From Antrihabitans stalactiti (GTDB taxonomy: Bacteria > Actinomycetota > Actinomycetes > Mycobacteriales > Mycobacteriaceae), in the NCBI RefSeq assembly GCF_012932915.1, contig NZ_VCQU01000015.1:1-64000 (forward strand): 64,000 nt of DNA, read 5' to 3'. The translations under genes and the position numbers were made by a program. Under the pieces are notes generated by a model, which made no database searches, was not told the origin of the DNA, and was given only the letters and a program-made list of their open reading frames with translations. Each line of letters begins with the position of its first letter. Position 1 is the stretch's first letter. This document shows positions 28,558-60,164 of the stretch, in pieces.

Positions 28558-28624
28558 GAGAGCCCCTCTAGGAGTGTTGGTTTCGAGTCAGATGATGATT
28601 GATGTGGGCGAACTGTCAGCGCCG

Positions 28625-29236: not shown

Positions 29237-29275
29237 GGTCACTCCAACTATCGGTGGTATCGAAACGTTTGTGCG

Positions 29276-30241: not shown

Positions 30242-31296
30242 CTGACCGCTCCGATCATTCGCAATGTCGCGAGGATGCGATCGACTTGATCGTCGGAGGA
30301 GACTGCGGGCATCGATGTTGCGGGTGCGGTGTTCACGTCGACGATGTTGACCTTGGGGCCGTATTCGACGAACGGAATGAGCTTGTCGCGAATGAGGGCC
30401 ACGAGTTTGTTGAGGTTCGATGGCGCGGTCAGGTTCAACGGCCGACTGGTAAAGGCCAGCGGTACAAACGCTTTTGCTGCCGCATCGGCTGAGGTGAACA
30501 GCGGCGTCAACCATTCCAGCGAGTGCGCGACGCCTCCCAGTGCACCGAACAAACCGAGTGTCGCGACGAGGGAGTTCATCGAATCGACCGCCTGAGTTGC
30601 TCCGGCGTCAGTGAGTAGCGCGCTGAGCGCGGGGCCGTTGTCTTGCACGACTGCGACGTCTGCGGTCAGTCCGTCCAGCAGCGCGTCGATTTGATGCAGG
30701 TTTTCCGACACATCGATGAAGTTCGTCCCGAGGACGCCGGAGATTCGGGCGGTCTCCTTCGGGTCTTGCGGGAGAACCGAATTCATTCGGTTGATGATGT
30801 CTTGAGCCTGTTCGATGGCGCCACCGCCGACGAAGGTTGCGATCCCGGACATGGCGTCCTCGATCTGCAGGGCGGGTTGGGACTGTGCCAGCCCGATCGT
30901 GCCGTTGGGTGGGATCGTGGTGTCGTGGTTGGCCGGAGGGGTGACCAGGGCGATGTAGATGTCGCCGAGCACGGTGGCCTGTCGCAGTTGCGCCGATGTG
31001 CTGGTCGGAAGTTTCACCGATTCGGTGATGTCGACATCGGCAACGACATATCCCTCCCGACTCGCGGACGGGTCGACGAGCCGCACCGAGCGTAGGGATC
31101 CGATCTGGATTCCGTTGGAGGCTACTTTCGCGCGTGCCGGAAGGTTGAGCGCATTCGCAAATTCGATGTGAATCCGATAAGTCTGCCCCGACACGGTGGT
31201 GCCGGGCAGTGGGACCGAAGACGGATCGAACGAGCAACCCGCGGCTGCGAGGGCGATCGCAACCACGACGACCGGCACGGCGTGTCTCCACCTCAT
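30238..31296 (-). CDS. mceE: Mce family lipoprotein MceE
   Basis: The lipoprotein subunit of the complex. A signal peptide ends in AIALAAAGCSFD with a lipobox Cys, followed by the MCE domain (KVASNGIQIGSLRSVRLVD) and a helical tunnel region. It has 352 residues from the ATG at 31296, which overlaps mceD by ATGA. Like LprK/LprN of mycobacteria it probably caps the hexamer. Confidence 0.9.
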   Translation of the reverse strand: MRWRHAVPVVVVAIALAAAGCSFDPSSVPLPGTTVSGQTYRIHIEFANALNLPARAKVASNGIQIGSLRSVRLVDPSASREGYVVADVDITESVKLPTSTSAQLRQATVLGDIYIALVTPPANHDTTIPPNGTIGLAQSQPALQIEDAMSGIATFVGGGAIEQAQDIINRMNSVLPQDPKETARISGVLGTNFIDVSENLHQIDALLDGLTADVAVVQDNGPALSALLTDAGATQAVDSMNSLVATLGLFGALGGVAHSLEWLTPLFTSADAAAKAFVPLAFTSRPLNLTAPSNLNKLVALIRDKLIPFVEYGPKVNIVDVNTAPATSMPAVSSDDQVDRILATLRMIGAVR

Positions 31297-32393
31297 GGCG
31301 TGCCAACCGATCCGAGTACCACGGGAAGCAGATCGAGGGTCATCAATCCGTCGGTCGCCGTCGCGCACCTGCCGGGCGAAAGCGCGTTCACGGCTGTGCA
31401 GACCTGATCTGCATTCGACTGGGGGATGGCAACTTTGGGTGGGGAGTAGGTCAATGCCGGTGCGCCGGTTCGTGGATCGATCGACCGGGTGAACGCGCCC
31501 ACAAGCGGCGGGATCATGGTGATGATCTCCTGGAGGGTTCCGACGTTGGCGCCGATGAAATGGACGATCGGGACTGTGGCATCGAGAACCTGGAGGATGG
31601 GTTCACCGAACATGGTGGTGATGTCGTTCACCATTGGGATGAGTACGCGCAAGGAGTCGATGATGCCGGCGATGGGCAACCACACCTGCTCGTTGACGTA
31701 GTCGAGAACGCCCGCGAACGGGACCAGCATGTCCTTGATGTCGCCCCAGCCGGTCGACACACTCGCCGACAGCTCGTTGAGCACATCGATCAGCTCACCG
31801 ATGTGTCCAATCGCTGCATCCGGCGAATTCAGCGCAACACCAATCTTTTTTATCAGTTCGTTGATTCGTGGGCCGGTGCCCGCGACAGCGTTGTCGATGG
31901 CTTTGATACCGGTGTTGATGCGTCCGGTGGCGGTCGGGTCGTCGCCGCCGTTGAGTTCGTTGGCGAGGTTGCCGAGCGCGTTGAGTGTTTGAGTCATGCT
32001 TTTCGGTGTGAGCGTGCGGGTGATGCACGTACTCGGATCCCACTCGGTGGATTCGCCGTCACCGAGAACGGCCAGATTGCGGTCCGCGACAAGAGTGTCG
32101 GACAGAGTGGTCGCGGATACGGCGCCACGGAGCCTGTGGTCGGCGTCGACGTCGAAATCGACGCGCACGGTCTCACCTTGCGGCCAGATGTCGGTAACGG
32201 TGCCGACTGGGACGCCGAGCATGGTGACGTTGTTGCCGGTGTAGAGGCCGACGGCGTCGGGCATCAGCGCGCAGTAGCTCTGGGTCTTCTTCGCGGGATC
32301 GTAGGCGATGACGTAGGCCACGAAGACCAACGTGCACGCGACGAGCACGCCGGCGACCGACATGAATCCGCGAGAGGCAAGTATCCGGTTCAT
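31293..32393 (-). CDS. mceD: Mce family protein MceD
   Basis: Membrane-anchored Mce subunit: TM near residues 10-30 (SVAGVLVACTLVFVAYVIAY), then the MCE domain with TMLGVPVGTVTDIWPQGE. It has 366 residues from the ATG at 32393; the stop of mceC and this ATG share one base (TGATG). The C-terminal tail with paired Cys (DQVCTAVNALSPGRCATATD) is typical of MceD. Confidence 0.9.
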   Translation of the reverse strand: MNRILASRGFMSVAGVLVACTLVFVAYVIAYDPAKKTQSYCALMPDAVGLYTGNNVTMLGVPVGTVTDIWPQGETVRVDFDVDADHRLRGAVSATTLSDTLVADRNLAVLGDGESTEWDPSTCITRTLTPKSMTQTLNALGNLANELNGGDDPTATGRINTGIKAIDNAVAGTGPRINELIKKIGVALNSPDAAIGHIGELIDVLNELSASVSTGWGDIKDMLVPFAGVLDYVNEQVWLPIAGIIDSLRVLIPMVNDITTMFGEPILQVLDATVPIVHFIGANVGTLQEIITMIPPLVGAFTRSIDPRTGAPALTYSPPKVAIPQSNADQVCTAVNALSPGRCATATDGLMTLDLLPVVLGSVGTP

Positions 32394-33433
32394 CAGCACG
32401 CCTTGCCAGGGACTGGAATGCACAGGGCGGGTGCGGTAATGGTCGCCGAGGACTGGTCGAGGACGACGCCGTTGGGAGTGGCAAGCGGTTGCAGCCGGCC
32501 GAGCAGGTTCCGCACGGATTCCACTGCACCGCCGAGCTTGCCGCCCAAGCGCTGCAGTTCCGGGACGGCGTCAGCGAGCTTTTGTGCCATCGGCTTCAAG
32601 GTGGTCTCCCAGTGCGGCCCCAGTACCGCCAGTCGCGACAAGGCCTGGTCGGTGACGCGCAGGGCTTCCTGGATTTCGGCCTGTTTGTCGATCACGATCG
32701 TTTCCAAGAGGCTGATTCGATGGATCAGCTCGCCGAGGAGTGATTTGGAACCGTTGATCGCGGTGAGGTATTCGTCGGCGATCGCGAGGCTGCGTGAGAC
32801 GTCGTCGTTTTGTTTTACGAGGATGTCGACGAGCGATTCGATCGCGGTGCCCGCGCGGCGCAGGCCGTCGGGAGTGCCGTCGAGCGATGTCTGCAGGGCC
32901 GCGAAGTTCTGGCGCAAGGTCTTGCCGTCGATCTCGCGGATCGGTTGGGCTGCGTCCTGGAACGCTTTGGCCAGGTTGTAGGGGAGTCGTACCCGATCGG
33001 GCGGAATCACGGTGTCACCGAGCGGCGTGGTGCCCGCGGGAAAGACGGCCACGTAGTGGCCGCCGACGATGGTGAGCATTCGGATGTCGAGCGTCGTTTG
33101 GTCACCGATGAATACATCGTCTTTCACGGTGAACGTCATCGTGACACTGTTCGTGTGGAGGTCGATGGATTTCACCGTGCCGACAGGGATACCGGCGATC
33201 CGCACGTCGTCGCCAATTTTGACGGAGCCTGCCTCAGCCAGTTCGGCGGTGTACGTCGCTCTGCCAAGCGGCAGGACGTAGAGCACTCCGGTCGCGATCA
33301 ACGCGAGCACCACAACGACAGTACCCACTATCCCCAGTCGCAGCTGCGAGGTTGCTGCCTCTCTGTCGGTCGGTATCGGCCGACTGGCGGAGAACTGAAA
33401 GAGTCTGCGCGCCTTGAGTTTCAACGATTGCAT
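32393..33433 (-). CDS. mceC: Mce family protein MceC
   Basis: Mce subunit with a cytoplasmic N-terminal stretch of about 30 residues, one TM helix (LGIVGTVVVVLALIATGVLY) and the MCE domain (DVRIAGIPVGTVKSIDLH). The helical tunnel region follows, ending in a Cys-containing tail. It has 346 residues and overlaps the end of mceB by 13 bases. Confidence 0.9.
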   Translation of the reverse strand: MQSLKLKARRLFQFSASRPIPTDREAATSQLRLGIVGTVVVVLALIATGVLYVLPLGRATYTAELAEAGSVKIGDDVRIAGIPVGTVKSIDLHTNSVTMTFTVKDDVFIGDQTTLDIRMLTIVGGHYVAVFPAGTTPLGDTVIPPDRVRLPYNLAKAFQDAAQPIREIDGKTLRQNFAALQTSLDGTPDGLRRAGTAIESLVDILVKQNDDVSRSLAIADEYLTAINGSKSLLGELIHRISLLETIVIDKQAEIQEALRVTDQALSRLAVLGPHWETTLKPMAQKLADAVPELQRLGGKLGGAVESVRNLLGRLQPLATPNGVVLDQSSATITAPALCIPVPGKAC

Positions 33434-34428
33434 ATCGAGATCCTCTGCCCGGCGATGAGAACCTGCAGCGGCCCGGGTGCGGTCGCGTTTCCGTTCGAGC
33501 AGGTGAGGTTCACTCCGGGACCGGTGTCGGGGATCAGCGCGTTCAGTGACTGCAGCAGGGCGGGTAACCGGCCGAGAACCTCGACCGCCTGGCCTGGATC
33601 GGGGAACAGCAGCCCGACGATGTTGTCGAGATCGGGATTGGAGTCTGGGGTGAGCCCTATGGTGGCGAGCAGGCTGTTCAGCGGGGTCAGCACCGGTGGT
33701 GCGGTCATCGCGAAATCGACAACGCCGTCGAAATTCTCCTGCAGTGTGACGAACACCTGGGTGATTCCGTTTATCAGGGTGATGAGTTGGGGTGAGCGCC
33801 CGCCGATTTGGTCGGAGATCTGCTTCAGGTTGGCCACCAACGCCGAGATGACGGTTTGGCGATCACTCACGTAGCTGCTCAGCGTTTCGATCGCGTCCAG
33901 GGCGGGCCCTATCCCAGTGCCGTTGCCTTCGATCACCGCCAGCAGGCTCTCCGCAAACTGATTCAGTGCGCTGGGTGAGAAGTCTGCGAGCACTGGTTCG
34001 AGGCCGTTGAACAACCCGGTGATGTCGAAGGACGGAATGGTCGCATCGGTGCCGATGGTGGTACCGGGGACGAGTTCGGTCCCGGGGTGTGGTGGTTGCT
34101 GGATGTCGACGTAGCGCTGCCCGGTCAGATTCTGGTAGCGGATCGCGAGTCTGCTCGTGTCGAACATCGACCTACCGTCTTGCACGGTCAACCCGACCCG
34201 TGCGTGATTGTCGTCGAGGCTGATGGACTGCACCTTTCCGACCTGGACCCCGTACATGCGCACGTCGTCCCCGGTCTTGAGCCCGTTCGCATCCGTGAAA
34301 ACCGCTGTGTAACTCCGGGTGTCGCCGGGCACTGGCCGCTTGATCGCCTGGATGATGAAAGTGAGCAGCACCGCGATCAATGCGACGAACAGAGTCAGCT
34401 TCCAGGACACGGAGACGAGTGACTTCAT
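33421..34428 (-). CDS. mceB: Mce family protein MceB
   Basis: Mce subunit with TM (LTLFVALIAVLLTFIIQAI), MCE domain (DVRMYGVQVGKVQSISLD) and a shorter helical domain. It has 335 residues with the usual C-terminal cysteines (NLTCSNGNAT, RISICNR). The ATG overlaps the mceA stop by four bases. Confidence 0.9.
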   Translation of the reverse strand: MKSLVSVSWKLTLFVALIAVLLTFIIQAIKRPVPGDTRSYTAVFTDANGLKTGDDVRMYGVQVGKVQSISLDDNHARVGLTVQDGRSMFDTSRLAIRYQNLTGQRYVDIQQPPHPGTELVPGTTIGTDATIPSFDITGLFNGLEPVLADFSPSALNQFAESLLAVIEGNGTGIGPALDAIETLSSYVSDRQTVISALVANLKQISDQIGGRSPQLITLINGITQVFVTLQENFDGVVDFAMTAPPVLTPLNSLLATIGLTPDSNPDLDNIVGLLFPDPGQAVEVLGRLPALLQSLNALIPDTGPGVNLTCSNGNATAPGPLQVLIAGQRISICNR

Positions 34429-35477
34429 CGGTCCGCTCCCTGCAACGACGGGGGAGAGGTTCCGAGCAGCGGTACCGACAGTGCCGGCACGCCCCGCAAC
34501 GTCACGGCGAACTTCAGCATCGGACCGTCGGGGGTGTCGGTGAACGAGGAATCTAGCCGGTCGAGGAGTTCGCGGAGTTGTGCACTCGACAGTTGTGGTG
34601 TCGGCACCATCCGCGCTGCCGCGTCCAGGGCTGGCGGAAGCATGTCGGCGTAACCGGTGAAGTGCCGCTCGGCGGTGAAGAGCAGGTCGGAAATTCCTGG
34701 AAAGAGTTGGTGGATGGAAATTTGCAGTACTTGATCGAACTTTGCCCGGTCGGTTTTCAGGATCTCGAGATTGGTGAGCGTATCTAGCAACTGGACGGTT
34801 CCGCCGACCATCGGCGCCGCGCCCGACAGGGTGGACCCGAACTGCCCCAACAGGAACGAGGCCGCGTAGCGCTGAGTGTCGGCGATGTTGCGTCCGGTGG
34901 TGACGATGGCCTCGAGCAGCGGGGTGAACGCCTCCAGATCTCCGGCCAGTGTGGTCAACGTTGCGCTGAGTTGCGGGGTCAACACATCGGTGGCGGTACG
35001 CGTGACCGCCCGGAGCAAATTCCCCATCGTGACGTCCTGTACCCGGTCGGCATGTCTGCCGGTCAAATCGATGACGTCGTCGTTTGCCAGAGCGTTCCCG
35101 CCCTGGCCTCGTCGCAGTGCGATTTCGCTGATGCCGAAAAGGTTCGAGGGTGCGTAGTCGACGTCGAGGGTGTCTGTCACTCCGAACAACTGGGATCGGT
35201 CGAGTCGCAACGTGATCAGTTGTTGGCCGTCGTGCGCGTTTTCGATCTTCTCGATCTGGCCGACGGCGACTCCGTCGAGACGGACCTGCGTTCCGTCGAC
35301 GATGCCGTCACCGATCTGTTCGGTCCGCAAAACGACCAGTAGGCGGTCATCGCCGCGGACTCGGTCGACGATGATCCACGCGACCGCCAGGACCGCGACG
35401 ACTCCGACAGCGACAAGGCCGACGAGGACAGACCCGCGCCTGTCGATCGTCACTCCAGGCAATCCGTATTTCGGCAT
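34425..35477 (-). CDS. mceA: Mce family protein MceA
   Basis: The first Mce subunit: TM (VLVGLVAVGVVAVLAVAWII) and MCE domain (QVRLDGVAVGQIEKIENA), 350 residues. It starts three bases after yrbEB. Six Mce proteins A-F form a heterohexameric channel across the periplasm that delivers lipids or sterol-like compounds to the YrbE permease. Which compound this system carries is not shown by the sequence. Confidence 0.9.
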   Translation of the reverse strand: MPKYGLPGVTIDRRGSVLVGLVAVGVVAVLAVAWIIVDRVRGDDRLLVVLRTEQIGDGIVDGTQVRLDGVAVGQIEKIENAHDGQQLITLRLDRSQLFGVTDTLDVDYAPSNLFGISEIALRRGQGGNALANDDVIDLTGRHADRVQDVTMGNLLRAVTRTATDVLTPQLSATLTTLAGDLEAFTPLLEAIVTTGRNIADTQRYAASFLLGQFGSTLSGAAPMVGGTVQLLDTLTNLEILKTDRAKFDQVLQISIHQLFPGISDLLFTAERHFTGYADMLPPALDAAARMVPTPQLSSAQLRELLDRLDSSFTDTPDGPMLKFAVTLRGVPALSVPLLGTSPPSLQGADR

Positions 35478-35480
35478 CGT

Positions 35481-36347
35481 CTATCCCGTGAAACTGATCG
35501 ACGAATTGAAACCCCACAGCGCGATGCTCAACACCATGTCGAGAGCGATGATGGCGACAAAGCTGGCGCGGACCGCGCGGCCCGACGCGATTCCCACGCC
35601 CTCCGGTCCACCAGTGGCGACAAAGCCTTGGTAGCAGTGAATCAAGATGACCGCAATGCCGAAGATGAGGATCTTTATTACTGCAGCGGTCACGTCCCAG
35701 CCGCTCACGAACTGGAAGAAGTAGTGGTCGTAGACACCGCTGGCTTGACCGTGCAAAACGACGATGACAGCGCTGCAAGACATGTAGCTCAAGATCAACG
35801 CGATCAGGAATGTCGGCACGATTGCGACCGCGCCGGCGATCACCTTGGTGGTGACAACGTAGGGGATCGACCGCAAACCCAATGCTTCCAGGGCATCGAT
35901 CTCCTCTGATATGCGCATAGACCCGATTTGCGCGGTCATGCGGCAGCCCGCTTGGGCGGCGAAACCGATTCCAGCGGCGATCGGGGCGAGTTCGCGCGTG
36001 TTGGCAAACGCGGAGACGACGCCGGTGACCGGCCCAAGGCCGATCATGTCGAGCGTGGCGAAGGATTCGATGCCGACGGAGGCGCCCATCACCATGCCGA
36101 GGACGATCAGCATCGGCACCGTCCCGCCGCCGACTATGAGTGAGCCGCGACCCCAGGTCATATCGGTGATCGTGCGCATCGTTTCTGCGCGGTACTTCTT
36201 GAGCGTCAACGGGATTGCGGACAGCGCCTGCCACGCGAAGCTCAGGGCGAAACCGATGGTTTCGAACGGGCGGGTGATTCGAGACGGTGACGCGGCGATG
36301 CGGTAAGCCCAGCCAAGACCCTTCGAGGCGTAGGTCGACGGCGCCAT
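35481..36347 (-). CDS. yrbEB: YrbE/MlaE-family permease B
   Basis: An integral membrane permease of the MlaE family with the EQ-loop-like coupling segment RMTAQIGSMRISEEIDALEALG. It pairs with YrbEA. It has 288 residues from the ATG at 36347, which shares a base with the yrbEA stop (TGATG). An upstream in-frame extension lies inside yrbEA. The cognate ATPase (MceG) is not in the window, as usual, because one MceG serves all mce loci. Confidence 0.9.
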   Translation of the reverse strand: MAPSTYASKGLGWAYRIAASPSRITRPFETIGFALSFAWQALSAIPLTLKKYRAETMRTITDMTWGRGSLIVGGGTVPMLIVLGMVMGASVGIESFATLDMIGLGPVTGVVSAFANTRELAPIAAGIGFAAQAGCRMTAQIGSMRISEEIDALEALGLRSIPYVVTTKVIAGAVAIVPTFLIALILSYMSCSAVIVVLHGQASGVYDHYFFQFVSGWDVTAAVIKILIFGIAVILIHCYQGFVATGGPEGVGIASGRAVRASFVAIIALDMVLSIALWGFNSSISFTG

Positions 36348-37201
36348 CACGCGAGCCTCGTCGGCAGGAACATGGTCGAGACCTGGGTGATCACGAGGTT
36401 CACGACGACGATCGATACCACCGACAGGACAACCGCGGCGTTGACGCTGTCGGCCACTCCGCGGGGCCCTCCTTTGGCCTCGAGTCCCCGCTGGCAGGCG
36501 ACTACGACGACCAAGAAGCCGAAGATGATCGATTTGATCAATGACAGCCATACGTCAGTGGCCGTGGTGAACGAACCGAAGGTCTGCCAGTAGCTACCCG
36601 CGGTCACGCCTTGCGCACCGATGGCTACCGCATACCCGGCCACGACCCCGACGAAGATGATCAGAACGTTCAGCAATGGTGCGACGATCACCATCGCGAC
36701 CATCCGCGGAATGACGAGCCGGTGCACGGGGCTGATGCCCATCGTCTTCATCGCGTCGATTTCCTCGCGAATCGTCCGCGCACCCAGGTCAGCCGCGATT
36801 GCTGCCGCGCCGGCCCCACCCAGCAACAACCCGGTCGCCATCGGCGCACCTTGCTTGATGACCCCGAGTCCGCCGGCTGCGCCGAGCAGCGAGTCGGCGC
36901 CCAGCTGGTGGATCAGATTCCCGACCTGCAAGGACACGATCACCCCAAAGGGAATCGCCATCAGGATCGCGGGGATGGCAGTGACGGTGATCAGGTACCA
37001 GCATTGGTACACCATTTCCCGCCACTGAAACCGTAGCCGGACGATGTCGGAGGCCGCCCCGGTCACCGATTCGAGACCGACACCCACCGCCCGACCGAAT
37101 GTCCGCAGGCTCGAGATAAAGGTTTCGGAGAAGTTGTTTCGAACGATCCCGAGCGCGGACGACGATTTCTCATCTGCGACCGGCGGTGCGGTGAACACCA
37201 T
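36347..37201 (-). CDS. yrbEA: YrbE/MlaE-family permease A
   Basis: The partner permease: five to six membrane segments and the MlaE coupling helix AADLGARTIREEIDAMKTMG, 284 residues. GAAGAAGG precedes the ATG. It begins 39 bases after the SRPBCC gene, consistent with co-transcription from the promoter upstream of that gene. Confidence 0.9.
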   Translation of the reverse strand: MVFTAPPVADEKSSSALGIVRNNFSETFISSLRTFGRAVGVGLESVTGAASDIVRLRFQWREMVYQCWYLITVTAIPAILMAIPFGVIVSLQVGNLIHQLGADSLLGAAGGLGVIKQGAPMATGLLLGGAGAAAIAADLGARTIREEIDAMKTMGISPVHRLVIPRMVAMVIVAPLLNVLIIFVGVVAGYAVAIGAQGVTAGSYWQTFGSFTTATDVWLSLIKSIIFGFLVVVVACQRGLEAKGGPRGVADSVNAAVVLSVVSIVVVNLVITQVSTMFLPTRLA

Positions 37202-37240: not shown

Positions 37241-37720
37241 TTACGGAGTTGCCGAGTGCGGCGGAGTTTCGTCGGCTTGTGCCGCCTCCAGGCACGCGTC
37301 GCACAATTTAGATGTCGTGACACGGGCGGCAAGGGCGAGAAGCGGTTCGATGGTTCGGGCGAATGCCTTCACAGCGGCCCCGCCTGACGTGGCGTAGAGA
37401 AGCACGAAGTCGAGCGCGGTTCTATCGGGTGTTACTGGTTCGAGTTGCATCGTCGCGGTGAACTCGAATCCGGATAGCGAATCCAAGCCGATGCGGCGGT
37501 CCTGTTCCCAATCGCTGATGCGGGCTGTGGAGCTGAGAGTCTTTGGACCTAGGTCGACCGAGCCTTCGAAGACGGCATCGGGGCCGTAGTCGGAGTCGCC
37601 GACTGGTTCGACGGTGGTTATGCCGAACACCCACTCGTGCATGCGGCGATAGTCGGCAATGTAAGCGAAAACGTCTGCCGCCGATCGCTCGATGATCCCG
37701 GTTGTCCGAATCTCTACCAT
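37241..37720 (-). CDS. SRPBCC/START-like protein heading the mce operon
   Basis: A polyketide-cyclase-like helix-grip protein that binds hydrophobic ligands: VEIRTTGIIERSAADVFAYI, then DYRRMHEWVFGITTVEP. The ATG at 37720 has GAGAGAA upstream; an ATG at 37765 would add 15 residues with no ribosome site. It has 159 residues. As first gene of the yrbE/mce operon it could bind the imported compound inside the cell; this is inference. Confidence 0.8.
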   Translation of the reverse strand: MVEIRTTGIIERSAADVFAYIADYRRMHEWVFGITTVEPVGDSDYGPDAVFEGSVDLGPKTLSSTARISDWEQDRRIGLDSLSGFEFTATMQLEPVTPDRTALDFVLLYATSGGAAVKAFARTIEPLLALAARVTTSKLCDACLEAAQADETPPHSATP

Positions 37721-37870
37721 CTGTCGTTCTCTCTGCTCGACCCCGTGAGAATTCTGGGTTGTCATGTGTGCCGACGGACTTGGCCACGATCATTGAATTG
37801 ACGAAGAAACTGATTGGCCTTCAATGACTGGCCTGCGGTATTCAGTCAACCTAAGCTCCGAGCGCCGACA

Positions 37871-37913
37871 TGTCAACACCGAGACATATTTGTCCAAACG
37901 TCTCGGACTGACA
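37871..37913. promoter_or_regulatory. Regulon operator, site 1 (mce operon)
   Basis: CCGAGAC (37879-37885) and GTCTCGG (37900-37906) form a 7-bp inverted repeat with a 14-base spacer containing ATTTGTC. TGTCA and TGACA flank it. The same arrangement recurs at 39852 and 41307. It lies about 150 bases upstream of the SRPBCC start. The rest of the 374-base gap 37721-38094 shows no gene. Confidence 0.7.
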
Positions 37914-38094
37914 GCGGCGAATTTCACCGGATGAATCGAAGGGGATCGCAAGGGGTCGCCGGAACTTCGGTGGCTGGCGAGTAAAACCTAGTTCGCGCAC
38001 GTTGAAGAGGCAGATTACCGTCGACGGAAAGATTCGCCCGAATCTGTTGCTATGCAAAGAATGTCACGCGCATATTAGCCGCGCGATCATGACT

Positions 38095-38739
38095 TCAGCC
38101 GGCCGGGCGAGCTCCTCCAACGACGATGGGTACGAAGTATCGCCGCGCGAACTCGGCGACAGCCGCGTCGTCGCGGAAAGGGATCAGTCCGTCCGGGATG
38201 AGCAGTTGGGTCGCCGCAAGTCGGATCATGATCTCGGCTGCCACGGATAGGTCGGCTTCTGGCAGGAGAAGATTGCGATCGTGGAGAGATTGCAGGTATT
38301 GCACGAGGAACATCCGGCCAACGGCCAGTGAGGCGCCGCCGCCGGTCGCGGCGTAGTTGTAGAGCTCCTCAGGCTCTGTCTCCATCAGCTTGCCGAGGAG
38401 CGGGTTCGCGCGCAGCTCGCGGGCGCTGGCGACGGCGAGCTGCACCACCGTGCCTGCGGCATCGGGCGCGGCAGCAACTGCGGCCGCGACTCTTGCCAGC
38501 ACCGCCAACATCTCGCGCCCCGCGACCGCCTGGACCAGGGAGTCTTTGCCCGGGTATCGGCGATATACCGCTGCTCGAGAGATGCCTGCCCGCCTAGCGA
38601 CGTCGCTCATGCTGCTGCGGCGAATCCCGACGAGCTCGAACTCTTGTTGCGCGGCGGCGAGAATTCGCGCGGTGACTTCTTCCGAGCTGTCCTGAGTCGA
38701 GGTTGCCGCGGACTTGTCGACGGAGCGTGACTCGGCCAC
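38095..38739 (-). CDS. TetR-family regulator, probable controller of the mce/oxidation regulon
   Basis: The N-terminal TetR helix-turn-helix is clear: ARILAAAQQEFELVGIRRSS, then DVARRAGISRAAVYRRYPGK. A helical effector domain completes 214 residues. The GTG at 38739 is chosen because a G-rich ribosome site lies seven bases upstream; TTG at 38760 is possible. It lies between the mce operon and the MpaB/esterase genes, whose promoters share one inverted repeat, so it is the best candidate to bind all three sites. Its own 147-base upstream region contains no full copy of the motif, so it may not autoregulate. Confidence 0.85.
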   Translation of the reverse strand: MAESRSVDKSAATSTQDSSEEVTARILAAAQQEFELVGIRRSSMSDVARRAGISRAAVYRRYPGKDSLVQAVAGREMLAVLARVAAAVAAAPDAAGTVVQLAVASARELRANPLLGKLMETEPEELYNYAATGGGASLAVGRMFLVQYLQSLHDRNLLLPEADLSVAAEIMIRLAATQLLIPDGLIPFRDDAAVAEFARRYFVPIVVGGARPAG

Positions 38740-38886
38740 GGCTGCACCCCCCGTTCGCAATTGGACGTATTCGAAACTACGCAGGACTGATCTGTGACCG
38801 ACCCGTCCCGATGCTGGGACAATACCGTATCTTTGTCACGCACTGCGAGTTTGCGTGCCTTTCGCGAAGCCGGATCGCGACTACCG

Positions 38887-39822
38887 TCAAAGCGCGACTC
38901 GCTCGGCCTCCACTGTCGGTGCTGAGCGATCGATGGGCGCCGCGTCGTAGAGTCCGGTCCGTGCGGCGACCCGGGCTCGCCGCACGAGAGTGCGAACCGG
39001 CGGGCTCACGGACAGTGGAATGGCGTCACGCACCCCCGGTGTGGCTGCGAGTGCGGCGAAGAGCGGACGATGTGTCATCCTGATCGCGGCTTTGACTGCT
39101 GTTGGGTAGGGCACCATTCCATACAGTCTCACTAGGTAGTTCGGCGTGATTGCGAGGCCGGTCGAGAGCGCGATCCGCATCGGCAATGCCATCAGCGCGG
39201 GCAGTAGGCCAGTTGTCGGTCGCGGTGCGAATACGTTGTTGACATAGAGGCCGGCTTCGGTCAATGCCAGATTTGCGCGCTCGGCCTCCAGGTACTCGTC
39301 AACTTCGGCTTGGCTCTTCGGCATCATTTCACGCGGGATCCTGTTGAGGTCGCCGACGATTGTCGACTCCTCGCGCCAGTAACGGTCCCGTTCTTCGGGG
39401 GTTAGGCGCCGCGGCCCGTATGCGTCGTAGGCGTCCAGTGCGGCTTGGCCATAGGGAATGAGCAGCCACATCAAATTGCGAGGCTCGGACGCGCAGTGGA
39501 CGCGATCGCCGGTTGGGCCCCATGTCCCGGTTACGTGGTCGTGCATCGTGTTGACGAGATCGGCCGCGTGTTGGGCGGTCGCACGGTCGCCGAAGTAGAT
39601 GGCGAACATGTACTCCGCAGTCAACACGATGCGCTTCCACGGGTCGGTTGCGCCCGTTGAATTCGAGACTCCGATGTTCGCAAGCCAGGGATTCAAGAAG
39701 AAGTATGCGCCAGTGCCCACGACGCCCGGAAAGATCGTCGGGCCGCTGATGCGCCAGGAGATGGAATCGGGGCCGAAGAATCCTTCGTCCTCGCAACGGA
39801 TTGGTTCTCTGATCATTGGCAT
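38887..39822 (-). CDS. Oxygenase MpaB-like (DUF2236) protein
   Basis: A 311-residue helical protein resembling the ER-bound oxygenase MpaB and rubber-oxygenase catalytic domain family, seen in DRVHCASEPRNLMWLLIPYG followed by GPRRLTPEERDRYWREEST. Family members use a haem-type site to cleave C-C double bonds in terpenoid chains. The block normally ending WVHA, with the presumed ligand His, reads WLLI here, so activity is uncertain; the nearby His in VHCASE might substitute. It is divergent from the esterase gene, with the shared operator between them. Confidence 0.7.
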   Translation of the reverse strand: MPMIREPIRCEDEGFFGPDSISWRISGPTIFPGVVGTGAYFFLNPWLANIGVSNSTGATDPWKRIVLTAEYMFAIYFGDRATAQHAADLVNTMHDHVTGTWGPTGDRVHCASEPRNLMWLLIPYGQAALDAYDAYGPRRLTPEERDRYWREESTIVGDLNRIPREMMPKSQAEVDEYLEAERANLALTEAGLYVNNVFAPRPTTGLLPALMALPMRIALSTGLAITPNYLVRLYGMVPYPTAVKAAIRMTHRPLFAALAATPGVRDAIPLSVSPPVRTLVRRARVAARTGLYDAAPIDRSAPTVEAERVAL

Positions 39823-39851
39823 GCCGTGAACTTAGGCCTGAAGACGGTGCA

Positions 39852-39883
39852 TGTCAACGAGACGAATATGTCGATTAGTCTCG
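39852..39883. promoter_or_regulatory. Regulon operator, site 2 (MpaB/esterase divergent promoters)
   Basis: CGAGAC (39858-39863) and GTCTCG (39878-39883), 14 bases apart, with ATATGTCGA in the spacer and TGTCAA in front. It lies in the 86-base gap between two divergent genes and would control both. Confidence 0.75.
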
Positions 39884-39908
39884 ATGTCATGAGAGAGGGT
39901 GGTTTAGC

Positions 39909-40856
39909 GTGAATGCGCCAAGTTTGCAATCGCAAGTGGTCTACGGAATCTTCCGCGGTGTGATTCGGCCTGTGCTGCAACGAATCCCAGTGACCGGATG
40001 GCCTGTCGTTCTCGCGACCGTCGTCGAGGCAACGGCTAAGGTGCTGCCGCCCCCTTCCGGAGTAACCGTCGAAAACGTGCGCCTTCCTGGTTTCGACGCC
40101 GAAGTAGTTCGGGCCGCGACCGCGAAATCGGACCTGACGTCTGGGGCAGTGCTGTACTTCCATGGCGGCGCGTTCCTCACCGGAGGACTCAACTCGCACC
40201 GCCGGGTCGTCGCGGCGCTCGCTCGTCGGACCGGGTTGCCAGTCATGCACATCGCCTACCGTCAGCTGCCGAAGACAAATATCAAGGGTTCGATCGACGA
40301 CTGCGTCACGGCGTATCGCTGGCTGCTCGACCGAGGAACTGATCCGGCGTCCGTGGTGTTTGCCGGTGATTCGGCCGGGGGATTCCTCGTGTTCGCCGCG
40401 GCACTCGCGGCCCGCGAAGTCGGGTTGGCCGGGCCGGCGGGGTTGATCGGATTCTCTCCATGGCTCGACCTCGATTGTGCGACGAAACTCGCACATCCGA
40501 ACCGGGCCACAGACGCCTACCTGCCGGCGAAATTGCTTGCCGCCGTGAGCGGGATCGGTGGGTACGAACCTCGCGTGCATGATCGAGTGCTGGCTCCGAC
40601 GACTGGCGATCTGTCCGCATTGCCGCCGGTCCTGCTGGTTGCCGTCGACTCGGAGGTCCTCTTCGTCGATGCCGAAGTCATGGCCGCGAATCTCGCAGCC
40701 GCGGGAGTATCGTGCACGCTTCGCGTCTGGACACGGCAGATCCATGCTTTCACGGCGCTGTTTCCCGAAATGCCAGAAAGTCGCGCGGCGTTGGATGACG
40801 CCGCCGGGTTCATCGCCTCGAGAAGCGACACGCAGAACTCGCCCTTGTGCCGATAG
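39909..40856 (+). CDS. Alpha/beta hydrolase, HSL-type esterase
   Basis: A hormone-sensitive-lipase family carboxylesterase. The oxyanion motif is YFHGGAF, the nucleophile is in FAGDSAGGF, and the general base is His in RQIHAF; Asp in AVDSEV is the likely acid. It has 315 residues from a GTG preceded by GAGAGGG. No signal peptide, so it is cytoplasmic. In this regulon it could cleave the ester or lactone made by the Baeyer-Villiger-like enzyme encoded nearby; this is inference. Confidence 0.88.
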   Translation: MNAPSLQSQVVYGIFRGVIRPVLQRIPVTGWPVVLATVVEATAKVLPPPSGVTVENVRLPGFDAEVVRAATAKSDLTSGAVLYFHGGAFLTGGLNSHRRVVAALARRTGLPVMHIAYRQLPKTNIKGSIDDCVTAYRWLLDRGTDPASVVFAGDSAGGFLVFAAALAAREVGLAGPAGLIGFSPWLDLDCATKLAHPNRATDAYLPAKLLAAVSGIGGYEPRVHDRVLAPTTGDLSALPPVLLVAVDSEVLFVDAEVMAANLAAAGVSCTLRVWTRQIHAFTALFPEMPESRAALDDAAGFIASRSDTQNSPLCR

Positions 40857-40876
40857 CTGGCGTCCGGTCGACGGCC

Positions 40877-41248
40877 CTACCCCGCGGAGGGCCTAGGAGA
40901 CCGCGTCTCGCGTAATTGCTCGGGTATGGCGGTCACTGTCAGGGGAATTCTGGCGGGGCCCGAGAGCACTGCACCGTCGGTCGCGAACCTAGCTCCGTGG
41001 CGGGGGCAGGCCCAGGCTTGCGATCCCGGATCGAATTCGAGCTCCCAGTCCAAGTGTGTGCATATTGCAGTAACAGCGTGCAATCTGCCGCCGGCATCGC
41101 AGAACACTCCGACGGGCTTCTTGTTCTTGCCAATCACGATTGTTGCTTCGCCTGGCTGCAGTCCTCGTTCGGACTGGTGCCGGCCTGTCAGCCCGCGAAG
41201 GAGCCGCGCGGAGTCGAGGACACGGGTGGCCAGCCTCCAGATTGTCAT
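40877..41248 (-). CDS. Rieske [2Fe-2S] protein
   Basis: A small 123-residue Rieske ferredoxin-like protein. The cluster ligands are visible as CTHLDW and CPRHGARF. Such proteins serve as electron carriers for oxygenases or as domains of Rieske oxygenases. It lacks any catalytic non-haem iron domain. It ends 20 bases from the convergent esterase gene and is divergent from the monooxygenase gene, with site 3 between. No clear ribosome site is seen. Confidence 0.85.
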   Translation of the reverse strand: MTIWRLATRVLDSARLLRGLTGRHQSERGLQPGEATIVIGKNKKPVGVFCDAGGRLHAVTAICTHLDWELEFDPGSQAWACPRHGARFATDGAVLSGPARIPLTVTAIPEQLRETRSPRPSAG

Positions 41249-41306
41249 TGGAACGTGCCGGATCTGGCGAGCTTCATGGTGCGAATCTAAGGAATCCAGG
41301 GTGTGG

Positions 41307-41338
41307 TGTCAACGAGACTGATTTGTCGATCTGTATCG
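41307..41338. promoter_or_regulatory. Regulon operator, site 3 (Rieske/monooxygenase divergent promoters)
   Basis: TGTCAA, CGAGAC (41313-41318), a 14-base spacer with ATTTGTCGA, and GTATCG (41333-41338), one mismatch from the other sites. It lies between the divergent Rieske and monooxygenase genes. Confidence 0.7.
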
Positions 41339-41394
41339 ACAAACTTGATTCGTCGGCCTACTGTCGTCCCGAACGACCCCAGGACGGAGAGCGC

Positions 41395-42990
41395 GTGACT
41401 GCGACAAGCACAACCGATCAACCCGAGCAGCCCGACTACGAAGTGGCGATCATCGGTGCCGGAATCAGCGGCATCGGCGCCGCAATCGCACTGCGGCGCG
41501 CCGGAATTCGCGACATCGCTCTGTTCGAGCGCGCATCCGACATCGGCGGAACTTGGCGCGACAACACCTATCCCGGTGTCGGAGTCGACGTCCCCGCGCA
41601 GGGGTATCAGTTCTCCTACGCGTTGAAGCCGGACTGGTCACGTGTGTTCGCCAAGGGCGCCGAGGTGAAGTCCTATGTGGACGATTGTGCCGACCGCTAC
41701 GACATCCGGCGGCTTGTGAAATTGAACAGCGAGGTCACCGCTCGTGTTTGGGACGACGATCAGAGCCTGTGGCGCCTGACAATCGCGGACCGACCCGTGA
41801 CGGCCCGGTTCGTGATCAGCGCCATCGGACCGTTCATCGAGCCGAAACCACCTGCCATCGACGGGCTCGGCGACTTCGAGGGCACGATTCTGTATTCGAC
41901 ATCTTGGGACCATCGTGTCGGACTCGCAGGCAAGAAGGTCGCGATCATCGGCACGGGTGCCAGCGCTGTGCAGATCATCCCTGAGATTGCCCACGAGGTC
42001 GCGCGCCTGGATGTCTATCAGCGCACGCCGATTTGGGTGACGCCCAAGCCTGACATCGGCACACCGGAATTAGCGTCGGTTTTGTTCAAAGCTGTTCCGC
42101 CCGTACAAAAGCTGGTCCGCAATGCTGCTGCGCGAATGATGGAGGTTCTCCTGATCGGCGTCGCCGTGAATCACGAAACGCTGGCGGCGGTCAATCACGG
42201 TACGACCCGCGCGCTTCGCGACATCTGGTACCGCCTGCAGGTTCGTGACGCGGTGACCCGCCGAAAGCTCACGCCTGACTACGACTTTGGCTGCAAGAGG
42301 CCCGCGACGTCGAACACCTATCTACAGACATTCAACCGGCCGAACGTGGAACTGGTCACGGATCCGATCGGTCGCATTACACGCGGCGGTGTCGAGACAG
42401 TCGTCGGCATCGAGCGAGACGTCGATGTGCTCATCCTCGCAACAGGTTTCCGGACAGCGACCGACCCCGAGGCATATCGACGAACTCCTGTGCGCGGCCG
42501 CGCCGGTTTCGACCTCGCCACCTTCTACTCCGAGCATCGTGCGCGGTCCTACGAAAGCGTCTCGATGCCCGGATTGCCCAACTATTTCACGATATTCGGG
42601 CCCTACGGCTGGGTCGGCGGAACCTGGCACGACTTGGTCGAGACGGCGTCAAATCACATAGTTCGGGTGATCAAGGAGGGCCACCGCCGGAACGCAACGG
42701 TCGTAGAGGTACGCGAGGACGCCGCTGATCGGTGGACCGAGTTCGCAAGAGAACGCATGTCGCACTCAGTTTGGGCGATCGGCAATTGCGCAACCGCGAA
42801 CAGCTATTACTACGATCACCACGGCGATACCACCTACATTCGGCCCACCTCCGCCCGTGAAGCCTGGCACGCGTCACGCACATTCGCGTTGGAAGACTAC
42901 GAGTTTCGATTCGGTCCGCCGATCGACATCGCTTTCGACGGCATCGAGGTTGCTCAGCCGATTGCTTCGCTGTCCCCAGCCGACCGCTGA
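41395..42990 (+). CDS. Baeyer-Villiger-like flavin monooxygenase
   Basis: A class B FAD/NADPH monooxygenase, 531 residues. The FAD Rossmann motif GAGISGIG is near residue 20 and the NADPH one, GTGASA, near 185. The family fingerprint FxGxxxHxxxW is present as FEGTILYSTSW, with Tyr where His is usual. Such enzymes insert oxygen next to a ketone or oxidise heteroatoms. The GTG at 41395 follows GGACGGAGA; the longer frame upstream overlaps the divergent gene. It is the first gene of a three-gene operon. Confidence 0.85.
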   Translation: MTATSTTDQPEQPDYEVAIIGAGISGIGAAIALRRAGIRDIALFERASDIGGTWRDNTYPGVGVDVPAQGYQFSYALKPDWSRVFAKGAEVKSYVDDCADRYDIRRLVKLNSEVTARVWDDDQSLWRLTIADRPVTARFVISAIGPFIEPKPPAIDGLGDFEGTILYSTSWDHRVGLAGKKVAIIGTGASAVQIIPEIAHEVARLDVYQRTPIWVTPKPDIGTPELASVLFKAVPPVQKLVRNAAARMMEVLLIGVAVNHETLAAVNHGTTRALRDIWYRLQVRDAVTRRKLTPDYDFGCKRPATSNTYLQTFNRPNVELVTDPIGRITRGGVETVVGIERDVDVLILATGFRTATDPEAYRRTPVRGRAGFDLATFYSEHRARSYESVSMPGLPNYFTIFGPYGWVGGTWHDLVETASNHIVRVIKEGHRRNATVVEVREDAADRWTEFARERMSHSVWAIGNCATANSYYYDHHGDTTYIRPTSAREAWHASRTFALEDYEFRFGPPIDIAFDGIEVAQPIASLSPADR

Positions 42991-43053: not shown

Positions 43054-44682
43054 ATGTCCAGAAATTACGACTACATCGTGATCGGCGCAGGCTCAGGTGG
43101 GTGTGCGGTCGCTGCGCGTCTGAGTGAAGACCGATCGGCCCGCGTGTTGCTGATTGAGGCTGGCGGGTCCAACCGCAAGCTTGAAGTGAAAGCCCCCTTG
43201 GCTTTTGCGAAACAGTTTCACAGCAAGCTTGATTGGGACTACTGGTCCGAGCCCGAACCTCATCTCAACGGACGCCGCATCTTCTCCCCACGCGGCAAAA
43301 TGCTCGGCGGCTGCAGCTCGATGAACGCGATGATCTACATCCGCGGTAACCGCCTCGACTACGACACGTGGGCTGCGAACGGTGCCGACGGCTGGTCTTA
43401 CAACGACGTCCTGCCCTATTTCGTGCGGGCCGAACGCAACGAGCACATTCACGACCAATTCCACGGCAAAACAGGTCCTTTGAACGTGACCCGCGTCCGC
43501 GATGTCGATCCGGTCAGCGTTGCCCTCGTCGATGCCGCGGCCGACGCCTTGAATATTCCCGAAAACAACGACTTCAACGGCGCCAGCCAAGACGGTGTCG
43601 GGCAGTTTCAGGTCACTCAACGTAGGGGTATTCGGTTCAGTGCGCGCGAGGCCTACCTGCGGGCGCGGCGTCGGAACCTGACGATCCGCACAAACACGCT
43701 CGTACACAAGATTCTCCTCGACAATGGCCGAGCGACCGGTGTCGAAGTCGCCGACGACAAAGGCAACGTCGAACGAATCACCGCGAGTCGGGAGGTCATT
43801 CTTGCAGCTGGTGCTTTCAATACCCCTGCGTTGCTGCAGCATTCGGGCATCGGTCCGGCCGAGCACCTTCGTTCGGTCGGGGTGGAACCTATCGTGGATC
43901 TGCCTGCCGTCGGCGAGCACCTTATGGAACACCCGTTGGTCTATTTGACCTACGAACTCAGCAACGGACATGTCGGACTCTTCGACGCCGAAGACCCCCG
44001 GCACCTGAAGAACTGGCTGCTGCATCGTCGCGGCAAACTCGCGAGCAATGTCGCAGAAACTGGGGGACACATCCGCTCAGACTCCGCACTGGCCGCACCC
44101 AACTTTCAAATCCTGTTCGCCCCAGCGTTCTTCTACAACCACGGGGCCATGGCCTGGGATACCCCGGCCGCGACCATCGCCATGTCCTACATCGCCCCGA
44201 GTAGTCGCGGACGAGTACGCATCCGCACCAGCGACCCGACCCGCAAACCCGCCGTCACCTACAACATGCTCGGCCGAGACTCGGAAATGGAGGAAATGAT
44301 CGACGCCGTCGAACTCGCCCGCCGCATCGCCGCAAGCGCCCCCGCCCGCGGAGTCCTGGGTGCCGAGATCACCCCCGGAGCGGCGGTGCAGTCCCGTGCC
44401 GACATCGCCGCCTGGATTCGCAGTACCGTCCAGCACACCTACCATCCGTCGTGCACGGCCCGAATCGGCAGTCCCACAGACGGTGTCGTCGATCCGCAGT
44501 TGCGCGTGCACGGCGTCCCGAACCTTCGAATCGCCGACGCCTCGGTTATGCCGACGATCATCCGAGGCAATACCAACGCGACCGCAATCATGATCGGTGA
44601 GCGATGCGCCGACTTCGTCCGCGCGGACCTCGCCACGGCACCCGTCAAGGCTGGACGCGTGTCGGAGGTCGGCGCACGATGA
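43054..44682 (+). CDS. GMC-family oxidoreductase (choline dehydrogenase-like)
   Basis: An FAD-dependent alcohol dehydrogenase or oxidase, 542 residues. The FAD motif GAGSGGCAVA is at the N-terminus, the GMC signature lies around GKMLGGCSSMNAMIYIRGN, and the catalytic His is in HTYHPSCTARIG. It would oxidise an alcohol, probably one released by the esterase. The stop overlaps the aldehyde dehydrogenase start (ATGA), so the aldehyde product likely passes to that enzyme. Confidence 0.9.
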   Translation: MSRNYDYIVIGAGSGGCAVAARLSEDRSARVLLIEAGGSNRKLEVKAPLAFAKQFHSKLDWDYWSEPEPHLNGRRIFSPRGKMLGGCSSMNAMIYIRGNRLDYDTWAANGADGWSYNDVLPYFVRAERNEHIHDQFHGKTGPLNVTRVRDVDPVSVALVDAAADALNIPENNDFNGASQDGVGQFQVTQRRGIRFSAREAYLRARRRNLTIRTNTLVHKILLDNGRATGVEVADDKGNVERITASREVILAAGAFNTPALLQHSGIGPAEHLRSVGVEPIVDLPAVGEHLMEHPLVYLTYELSNGHVGLFDAEDPRHLKNWLLHRRGKLASNVAETGGHIRSDSALAAPNFQILFAPAFFYNHGAMAWDTPAATIAMSYIAPSSRGRVRIRTSDPTRKPAVTYNMLGRDSEMEEMIDAVELARRIAASAPARGVLGAEITPGAAVQSRADIAAWIRSTVQHTYHPSCTARIGSPTDGVVDPQLRVHGVPNLRIADASVMPTIIRGNTNATAIMIGERCADFVRADLATAPVKAGRVSEVGAR

Positions 44683-46196
44683 CCGCCGCCTCCGACACAA
44701 GCGTCGCTCGCATCCAGACGATCCAAGTAGACAACCCGGCAACCGGCGCGATCATTGGGACCGTCGCCAACATGACCGCCGAACAAGTTGCGCACCTTGT
44801 CGATCGTGCGCGCGCCGCTCAACCCCTTTGGGAAGCAATCGGGTTCGCCGAACGCGCCAAACTCGTTCGCGCGCTCCGCAAGTGGTTCGTAGCCGAACGT
44901 GAGCGCATAGTCGACATTGTCGTCGCGGAGAACGGCAAAACCCGCGAGGACGCACTCCTTGCCGAGTTGTTCTATCTCGCCGACTCGATGGGCTTCTGGG
45001 CGAAGAACGCCAGCAATTACCTCCGCGACGTATCTCCGCGCACCCACTCGCCGCTCGTGCTCGGCAAGAAGGTCGTCGTACGACACCGCCCCCTCGGTGT
45101 CGTCGGTGTCATCGCACCGTGGAACTATCCGCTGACCTTGAGCATCGGCGACGCGCTGCCAGCTCTGATGGCCGGTAACTCAGTCGTGATCAAGCCAAGC
45201 GAAATCGCTCCGCTAGCAGTAGAATTCGTGATCCATGGCGCGCTGAAGGTGGGGTTTCCCGAAGATGTTCTGCTCGTGGCGACCGGGGCAGGGGAGACCG
45301 GAGCGGCGCTCGTCGACAACGCGGACATGATCCAGTTCACCGGGTCCACACGGACCGGGCGCCGAATAGCAGCGAAATGCGGCGAACGGCTGATCCCGTG
45401 TTCGGTCGAGCTAGGCGGTAAGGACCCGATGATCGTTCTTGCCGATGCCAACGTCGAACGCGCTGCCAATGTGGCCGTCGAATGGTCGATGCGCAATGCA
45501 GGTCAAATCTGCATGGCAATCGAGCGTGTATACGTCGAAGAACCGGTCTACGACGAGTTCGTCGCTAAGGTCATCGACAAAGTCACCGCTCTACGCCAAG
45601 GCGTGCCAGCTGACTACGGGTCGGTAGACGTCGGCGCGATCACCTTCCCACCCCAGCTCGACATCATCGAGGCTCACGTCAGCGACGCCGTGTCCAAAGG
45701 CGCGCAGATAGTTGTCGGAGGTCGTCGCTTGCCAGGTCCAGGCCGCTTTTTCGAACCAACCGTTCTGGTCGATGTGGATCACACCATGGACTGCATGACC
45801 GAGGAGACGTTCGGACCGTTGCTGCCGATCATGAAGGTGCACAACGACGAAGAGGCCATCCGGCTCGCGAACGATAGCCCCTACGGCCTCGGCTCGAGCA
45901 TCTTCACCCGCGACATCGGCAAAGGGAAACGCCTCGCTCGCCGGCTCGCAGCGGGCAACACCTGGATCAACGACGCGATCATGAGCTACCTCGCCCAGGA
46001 GGCTCCTTTCGCCGGCGCACGTGAATCCGGGCTTGGCGGACGGCACGGCAAGCAGGGCATCCGAAAATATTGCGACACACACACGATCCTCACGACTCGG
46101 TTCGCATTGACTCGTGAACCGACCATGTTCCCCAATTCCGCGAAACGGTCCCAATTCTTCGAAAGACTCATGGTGCTCATGTTCGGCCGAAACTGA
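44679..46196 (+). CDS. Aldehyde dehydrogenase (NAD(P)+)
   Basis: A classical ALDH, 505 residues: the Asn of PWNYPL, the Glu in ELGGKDPM and the nucleophile Cys in NAGQICMAIERV are present, with the cofactor motif FTGSTRTGR. The ATG at 44679 overlaps the GMC stop; a longer frame upstream lies inside the GMC gene. It should oxidise the aldehyde to a carboxylic acid. A C-terminal extension of about 30 residues ending MVLMFGRN may touch the membrane. Confidence 0.92.
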   Translation: MTAASDTSVARIQTIQVDNPATGAIIGTVANMTAEQVAHLVDRARAAQPLWEAIGFAERAKLVRALRKWFVAERERIVDIVVAENGKTREDALLAELFYLADSMGFWAKNASNYLRDVSPRTHSPLVLGKKVVVRHRPLGVVGVIAPWNYPLTLSIGDALPALMAGNSVVIKPSEIAPLAVEFVIHGALKVGFPEDVLLVATGAGETGAALVDNADMIQFTGSTRTGRRIAAKCGERLIPCSVELGGKDPMIVLADANVERAANVAVEWSMRNAGQICMAIERVYVEEPVYDEFVAKVIDKVTALRQGVPADYGSVDVGAITFPPQLDIIEAHVSDAVSKGAQIVVGGRRLPGPGRFFEPTVLVDVDHTMDCMTEETFGPLLPIMKVHNDEEAIRLANDSPYGLGSSIFTRDIGKGKRLARRLAAGNTWINDAIMSYLAQEAPFAGARESGLGGRHGKQGIRKYCDTHTILTTRFALTREPTMFPNSAKRSQFFERLMVLMFGRN

Positions 46197-46679
46197 CGGT
46201 GGAGGGAGTATCGGCCCAGCCCATGTGCGGTCGTCCCATCCCCCACAATCCAAGGCGGGGGCAATCCCATCTCTGGGTGCTGGATGTGCGAGTCGGCGTC
46301 CACCAGTTGTCACGTCGTGCTCGCAACGCGAATAGGCGGGCCGACTTCACTCACTTGCCCCGAACACCCTGACGGGTACGCAAGCAACCTGACGTCCGAC
46401 CGCGCATGCGGGAAGGTCGTGGAGCGAACTAACAATGAAATATCCACTCGCATATAAAAATTCGTAAGTCTCGAAGAGATGTCGTCTTGCGACTATCAGC
46501 CGCGGCATTAACAAGTATTGCGAGATTGGTGAGCCAGTGTTGTGACTGCTGCGAGACAACTATACGCGTGCGTCTACGCGTCTTCTACTGTGGCCTGTCG
46601 ACCCGGCGCGGTTCAAAATGAGACGGCTGTGCCTACGCGCAGGTGAACCGGCGACTGCGCCGAGATGGAGTGCAAAGCG
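46197..46679. other. 483-base intergenic region
   Basis: No convincing gene. The centre is AT-rich around 46435-46475. At 46552-46577 CGAGAC and GTCTAC lie 14 bases apart, a degenerate match to the regulon operator but without its TGTC core. The region presumably holds the promoter of the secreted hydrolase. Confidence 0.4.
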
Positions 46680-53880: not shown

Positions 53881-53897
53881 TTGTTCGTTAGGAACAA
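53881..53897. promoter_or_regulatory. Inverted repeat upstream of the PucR-type gene
   Basis: TTGTTC-GTTAG-GAACAA, a 17-bp palindrome just before the regulator ATG and about 70 bases from the divergent reductase start. It could be the operator of the regulator, or control desaturase expression from another factor. Confidence 0.5.
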
Positions 53898-53901
53898 ACT
53901 A

Positions 53902-60161: not shown

Positions 60162-60164
60162 AGC

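Follow-up and report, generated by a model that had tools for sequence, protein, structure and literature searches.

TetR-type repressors of mce operons are already known and are among the systems closest to the present locus. KstR (Rv3574) is a TetR repressor of the sterol mce4 operon, of catabolic genes and of itself, and its reported motif, TnnAACnnGTTnnA, is a 14 bp palindrome present at dozens of sites (PMC1995591). Mce3R is a TetR-type repressor of the mce3 operon, a double TetR polypeptide with a nonpalindromic operator of about 25 bp (PMC11667970). LcpR and LcpRB are TetR regulators adjoining a DUF2236/MPAB_Lcp oxygenase gene, the LcpRB operator being given as TATGTTAAT-N2-AAAATCACA (PMC8235351), while QacR binds a 28 bp palindrome as a tetramer (PMC4482099). 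Our subject is a 64,000-nucleotide stretch of Antrihabitans stalactiti (the window; contig C7 of the 6.76 Mb genome), in which an mce operon, a TetR gene and genes for oxidising enzymes lie together. In this soil actinobacterium, a lipid-import operon and oxidising enzymes appear to be co-controlled via one repeated operator.

The likeness to KstR lies in predicted TetR-type control that joins an mce operon to catabolic genes and the regulator's own gene, but the putative operators here are 24–26 bp palindromes with a 14 bp gap and occur mostly at one locus. The published KstR motif had no match on the plus strand of the window (the motif is palindromic), which places the cluster outside the KstR regulon by this measure and agrees with a first-pass annotation of this DNA, in which the repeated motif had been judged unlike the KstR consensus. 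Mce3R shares TetR-type repression of an mce operon and a similar operator length, but the protein here has 221 residues, one TetR_N stretch and putative operators with palindromic arms, and so departs from the Mce3R arrangement as reported; in Mce3R itself the profile matched the first TetR stretch only. As with LcpR and LcpRB, a TetR gene stands beside an MPAB_Lcp-type gene, but the reported LcpRB operator is by eye unlike the sites described below. QacR offers a long palindromic operator close in length to those proposed here.

Putative operators and predicted promoters of the Antrihabitans mce cluster

Three sites, S1 to S3, share the pattern CGAGAC-N14-GTMTCG starting at 37880, 39858 and 41313. 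S1 (CGAGACATATTTGTCCAAACGTCTCG; 37880–37905) lies upstream of the SRPBCC-yrbE-mce operon, S2 (CGAGACGAATATGTCGATTAGTCTCG; 39858–39883) between the MPAB gene on the minus strand and the esterase gene on the plus strand, and S3 (CGAGACTGATTTGTCGATCTGTATCG; 41313–41338) between the Rieske gene (minus) and the operon of a Baeyer-Villiger type monooxygenase (BVMO), a GMC oxidoreductase and an aldehyde dehydrogenase (ALDH; plus). Both the repetition at three intergenic regions and the position of each copy upstream of a gene set had been recognised in the first-pass annotation and were confirmed. The strict pattern with a central TGTC occurred three times in the 6.76 Mb genome, always in the cluster. 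GAGACNNNNNTGTCNNNNNGTNTCG was found exactly at S1–S3 only, and with up to two mismatches gave 76 matches compared to 23 for a reversed control; CGAGACNNNNNTGTCNNNNNGTNTCG had three exact matches in the A. stalactiti genome and none for its reversed control. Within the window, four matches to the consensus with at most two mismatches (three exact) were obtained against 0.90 expected, a number that 0 of 100 shuffles reached.

Conservation was assessed against a 39.8 kb stretch of Antrihabitans stalagmiti YC3-6 (L079), the nearest named relative and the sole available one with the cluster. All three sites are present at the orthologous promoters, which bears out the proposal to look for the motif in related species. 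Identity is 19/26 bases for S1, 26/26 for S2 and 23/26 for S3, where the variant right arm GTATCG is also kept; the cores are thus identical at 68 of 78 bases, compared to 191/363, 114/157 and 176/277 (53–73%) for the aligned stretches holding S1, S2 and S3, coding ends included. The central ATnTGTC, previously taken as a core, is not fixed, since A. stalagmiti has AGTC at two of the three sites. Among four genomes of the genus, the TetR gene and the operators are jointly present in two and jointly absent in two.

Each site adjoins a predicted leftward promoter on the minus strand, namely TTGACA-N17-TAGGTT (37848–37876) 3 bp from S1 and with its layout kept in A. stalagmiti, TTGACA-N17-TAAGTT (39829–39857) abutting S2, and TTGACA-N17-TAGATT (41284–41312) abutting S3. 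The element TGTCAA, formerly read as part of the operator, is instead the minus-strand -35 hexamer of these promoters. The earlier claim of identical spacing therefore holds from arm to arm (N14) but fails between TGTCAA and the CGAGAC arm, where the distance is 3, 0 and 0 bp for S1, S2 and S3 in both species. TTGACW-N17-TANNTT was found only beside S1–S3 in the window and only beside the three orthologous sites in the A. stalagmiti stretch. With one mismatch allowed, 0.82 matches were expected in the window and three of 100 shuffles reached three, so that the weight rests on the coincidence of promoter and site position. A rightward promoter for the BVMO operon, TCGACA-N17-TACTGT (41336–41364, plus strand), was predicted by eye; its hexamers and spacing are kept in A. 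stalagmiti, and the right end of S3 runs into its -35 box.

The count of three sites was correct for those three but overlooked a diverged, conserved fourth, S4 (TGGGACAATACCGTATCTTTGTCACG; 38815–38840), a weaker putative operator upstream of tetR and a candidate for autoregulation. Its arms, GGGAC-N14-GTCAC, match at 9 of 12 bases, which 0.8% of random 32-mers from the window equal. S4 lies inside a run of 27 bases identical to A. stalagmiti in a tetR upstream region that has otherwise diverged (113/190 aligned), and it is identical at 19/24 positions to the tetR/MPAB operator of locus L212.

The TetR gene that had been placed within the cluster was confirmed at 38095–38760 (minus strand) by PF00440 at 1.5e-13, above the curated cut-off, and its product is the proposed cognate repressor. 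The protein is 84% identical overall to its A. stalagmiti counterpart, and 45 of 47 residues are identical in the helix-turn-helix (HTH). An AlphaFold2 model (predicted local distance difference test, pLDDT, 88.6) was all-helical and TetR-like, with TetR regulators as its best Foldseek matches (E 6.8e-6, probability 1.00); this structure search contributes only the TetR-like identity of the modelled protein.

Operator type and TetR clade in other genera

In a first set of 78 loci around TetR homologues, part of the homologue list, the pattern sought was GAnAC-Nk-GTnTC, the gap being AT-rich. Six sites were found at spacing 14 and 11 at spacing 15, compared to 0–5 at every remaining spacing in the range 6–30; spacings 7 and 23, with five each, are 8 bp steps from spacing 15. 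Together, spacings 14 and 15 accounted for 17 sites against a local-shuffle mean of 1.45 (maximum 4 in 40), and, when the immediate upstream regions of the 78 TetR genes (24 kb) were taken by themselves, for eight against 0.55 (maximum 4, n=500). An initial spacing control was dropped as biased, as it included loci picked by the pattern (six matches at spacing 14). Control loci not picked in this way (344 kb) gave none at spacing 14, two at spacing 15 and five at spacing 13, three of the latter in the mce copies of L097, L100 and L103.

Spacing followed the phylogeny of the regulator. In the TetR tree (80), the seven spacing-14 loci required one change compared to a mean of 5.5 under shuffling, and 0 of 500 shuffles were as low; L110 was excluded from the spacing-14 label, its match sitting within its own tetR gene. 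The spacing-14 loci and the window fell in one 12-row set, joined by a branch of just modest support (84/80), inside which were 10 sister rows (98/92), while spacing-15 loci fell outside it. The 10 sister loci held nine spacing-14 sites with at most one mismatch in 84 kb, compared to four in 353 kb for the other 68; eight of the 10 had such a site and none had a spacing-15 site. A P450 gene stood beside tetR at 7/10 sister loci against 2/68 others, and an MPAB gene at 4/10 against 12/68.

Because this grouping had been picked after the data were seen, a fresh set was fetched. The clade profile matched at E ≤ 1e-30 in 265 of 401 genomes, and 70 loci (30 tool-supplied, 40 hand-picked across genera) minus eight from genomes already used left 62 loci covering 300 kb. 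Spacing 14 yielded 15 sites in 15 loci, with none at spacings 10–13 and 17–22. The shorter spacings gave eight at 6 (seven nested in spacing-14 sites), three at 7, seven at 8 and one at 9, and the longer ones five at 15, two at 16, three at 23 and one each at 24 and 26. At all 15 spacing-14 loci an MPAB (nine) or P450 (six) frame adjoins the TetR gene. Eleven sites are at the 5' end of the MPAB or P450 gene (in eight cases between tetR and a divergent MPAB gene), and the remaining four, all from one genus, are 0.7–1 kb further upstream. The putative operator type in these genera, beside MPAB/Lcp-type oxygenase or P450 genes, is GAnACnAAT-N6-ATTnGTnTC.

A matrix built from 20 sites outside the genus (15 fresh, five earlier), and so free of Antrihabitans DNA, ranked S2 (23.4), S3 (17.6), S4 (15.0) and S1 (13.5) as the top four positions of the window, followed by 11.9 and 11.8. 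In A. stalagmiti the top four were the orthologous sites, at 23.4, 21.9, 20.4 (S1) and 15.0, followed by 11.1.

Two other arrangements were seen among the TetR homologues. L013, L020, L232 and L233 carry tandem half-sites that recur every 8 bp (GAnAC-N3-GAnAC-N7-GTnTC-N3-GTnTC), an arrangement that would suit two overlapping dimers, and seven loci of one genus (L200–L206; near 4461 or 1080–1103) have a conserved GATAC-N8-GTATC upstream of P450-tetR.

Proposed regulation and its alternatives

The computations show the sites and promoters, their conservation and the tie of TetR clade to operator type; binding by the TetR protein, repression rather than activation, the inducer and the pathway are inferred. 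We consider it likely that a local, ligand-responsive TetR repressor co-regulates mce import with the MPAB, esterase, Rieske and BVMO-GMC-ALDH genes. Without ligand, the protein would occupy a 24–26 bp palindrome of the GAnACnAAT-N6-ATTnGTnTC type at three promoters and, bound 0–3 bp from near-consensus -35 boxes, would exclude RNA polymerase. S1 would control the SRPBCC-yrbE-mce import operon, S2 the MPAB gene leftward and probably the esterase gene rightward, and S3 the Rieske gene leftward and BVMO-GMC-ALDH rightward, while the weaker S4 would provide autoregulation. Repression may be relieved by a hydrophobic substrate or by a metabolite of it, so that uptake and oxidation are induced together. 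In the pathway envisaged, the monooxygenase would convert a ketone to an ester, the esterase would cleave it, and the GMC and ALDH enzymes would take the alcohol to the acid.

Several observations weigh against this proposal. The wider TetR family favours spacing 15 over 14 (the 11 against six sites above), the 15 fresh spacing-14 sites come from three genera only and are not 15 independent events, and 47 of the 62 fresh loci lacked an exact spacing-14 site (for 22 of the 62 the flank covered was just about 1.5 kb), some having spacing 8 or 15 instead. Forty simulated 64 kb sequences gave 18 matrix scores of at least 13.4, with a maximum of 22.4 (about 0.45 per 64 kb); S1 and S4 are thus near chance by score alone and rest also on place and conservation. 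Elsewhere in the same genome, a divergent TetR/P450 promoter at C1:9528 carries GAGAC-N14-GTATC with a matrix score of 21.0, and exclusivity to the cluster is therefore limited to the strict pattern. Either the neighbouring TetR may share the operator code or the regulon may be wider than the cluster. The idea of a separate Mce regulon is upheld as to a shared, non-KstR operator, but its scope may not be purely local. Finally, an operator upstream of the -35 box is also compatible with an activator.

Of the alternatives, the one that fares best, though still unlikely, is that the same TetR and sites activate the leftward promoters from immediately upstream of the -35 box. S1–S3 all lie upstream of a leftward -35 box, and S1 serves a leftward promoter only. 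Steric repression would fit better, however, as the -35 boxes have sequences close to consensus and an offset of either 0 or 3 bp is tolerated, which would hardly suit a contact-making activator; the overlap of the rightward -35 box with S3 would likewise argue against activation. It is improbable that S1–S3 are read by a regulator other than the TetR at 38095–38760. TetR genes are admittedly numerous in the genome (39 matches at E ≤ 0.001), one of them beside the similar site at C1:9528, but operator type and TetR clade co-occur in other genera and within the genus, and the matrix free of Antrihabitans DNA recovers S1–S4. That the repeats arose by chance, or are promoter elements without a regulator, is very improbable, since the arms lie outside the -35 and -10 boxes, are palindromic and conserved and match operators elsewhere, even if some conservation is to be expected with a strong promoter beside each site.

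The TetR regulon of the first-pass annotation was strengthened by the tracking of operator type with TetR phylogeny in other genera and revised with respect to the fourth site and its local scope. Taken as a whole, we lean towards a joint interpretation of three parts. A distinct TetR clade in several genera of the family, paired with MPAB/Lcp-type oxygenases and P450s, would read its own 24 bp GAnACnAAT-N6-ATTnGTnTC operator; the Antrihabitans regulon would have grown to take in a complete mce importer and an oxidation pathway; and a paralogous mce-BVMO-esterase module in the same genome would instead have acquired an unrelated TetR and its own operator. A module with its own TetR and operator would mean that importer copies are insulated by private switches. 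The operator and the TetR clade were unreported in the literature searched, where coverage of subscription journals was thin, and the proposed TetR-operator pair and its mce regulon would be new in this respect. Few mce importers have a known substrate. The operator shared here would indicate the enzymes that partner this importer and would provide a testable substrate sensor for it, and an operator code for this TetR clade would make many MPAB and P450 promoters predictable in related genera.

Gene content and further sites

The gene order from 29 to 46 kb is SRPBCC, two yrbE, six mce, TetR, MPAB, esterase, Rieske, BVMO, GMC and ALDH. The mce-to-ALDH block is syntenic with A. stalagmiti at 68–91% protein identity, while the CocE-type hydrolase gene and the tested genes beyond it had no counterpart in the 39.8 kb stretch of that species. 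On the minus strand, the mce operon begins with the SRPBCC (Polyketide_cyc2) gene (37241–37765), followed by a yrbE pair of MlaE permeases spanning 35481–37201 (36347–37201 and 35481 to about 36236; PF02405 in each) and six mce/MlaD genes (29276–35477), five of which (30238–35477) match TIGR00996 and the sixth of which was recognised by MlaD in open reading frame (ORF) 29276–30514. Two MlaE matches and MlaD/MCE domains in six ORFs give the canonical two yrbE and six mce genes. A long ORF antisense to the sixth mce gene (28556–30289, plus strand) has no Pfam match and is conserved in relatives; it is probably a shadow ORF.

The MPAB/Lcp-type oxygenase domain protein (38887–39822, minus; PF09995, 1.1e-29) has its ATG 6 nt past the -10 box, an indication that the message is leaderless. 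A search of the taxonomic order for MPAB relatives at E ≤ 1e-30 matched in its own genome only (1 of 348), a weak negative that covers six scored candidates per genome. The esterase (39909–40856, plus) is an alpha/beta hydrolase of HSL type (PF07859, 1.6e-42), and the Rieske [2Fe-2S] protein (40877–41248, minus) matched PF00355 at 2e-9. A ten-codon leader ORF (41245–41277, minus) starts 6 nt past the -10 box, is of equal length in A. stalagmiti and overlaps the Rieske ATG with its TGA (ATGA). On the plus strand follow the flavin monooxygenase of Baeyer-Villiger type (41395–42990), with a partial, below cut-off NCBIfam match to pentalenolactone D synthase, the GMC oxidoreductase (43054–44682) and the ALDH (44604–46196; PF00171, 3.1e-138), whose real start is probably downstream of 44604, as the A. 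stalagmiti alignment starts at residue 15.

A wider regulon was sought by the strict pattern and discarded, genome-wide matches being restricted to the three cluster sites. Family-wide, the pattern matched in 18 of 401 genomes (16 outside the genus, one match each); the six of these 16 that were checked all lay in long ORFs and were attributed to chance. When the matrix was applied to 17 further loci among the 76 matches with up to two mismatches, C1:9528 (21.0) and C21:279702 (15.0) stood out. A weak operator-like site at background level (11.9) is located at 46553–46576, upstream of the CocE-type hydrolase gene, and the window contains two further regulators, a PucR-type protein (53881–55116) and a TetR that additionally carries an HTH_3 domain (60096–60998).

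The paralogous mce-esterase-BVMO module (L096, G000:C5:60000-79900) has yrbE proteins 87–92%, an esterase 67% and a BVMO 61% identical to those of the cluster, whereas its TetR is unrelated and its MPAB-domain protein is a different one. The module's own motif, CTCTACCA-N4-ATGT-N5/6-AGGCTCTACCA (32–33 bp), occurs twice in four genomes of the genus, at C5:72201 and C5:73008, which correspond to the mce promoter and the tetR/MPAB promoter of the module.

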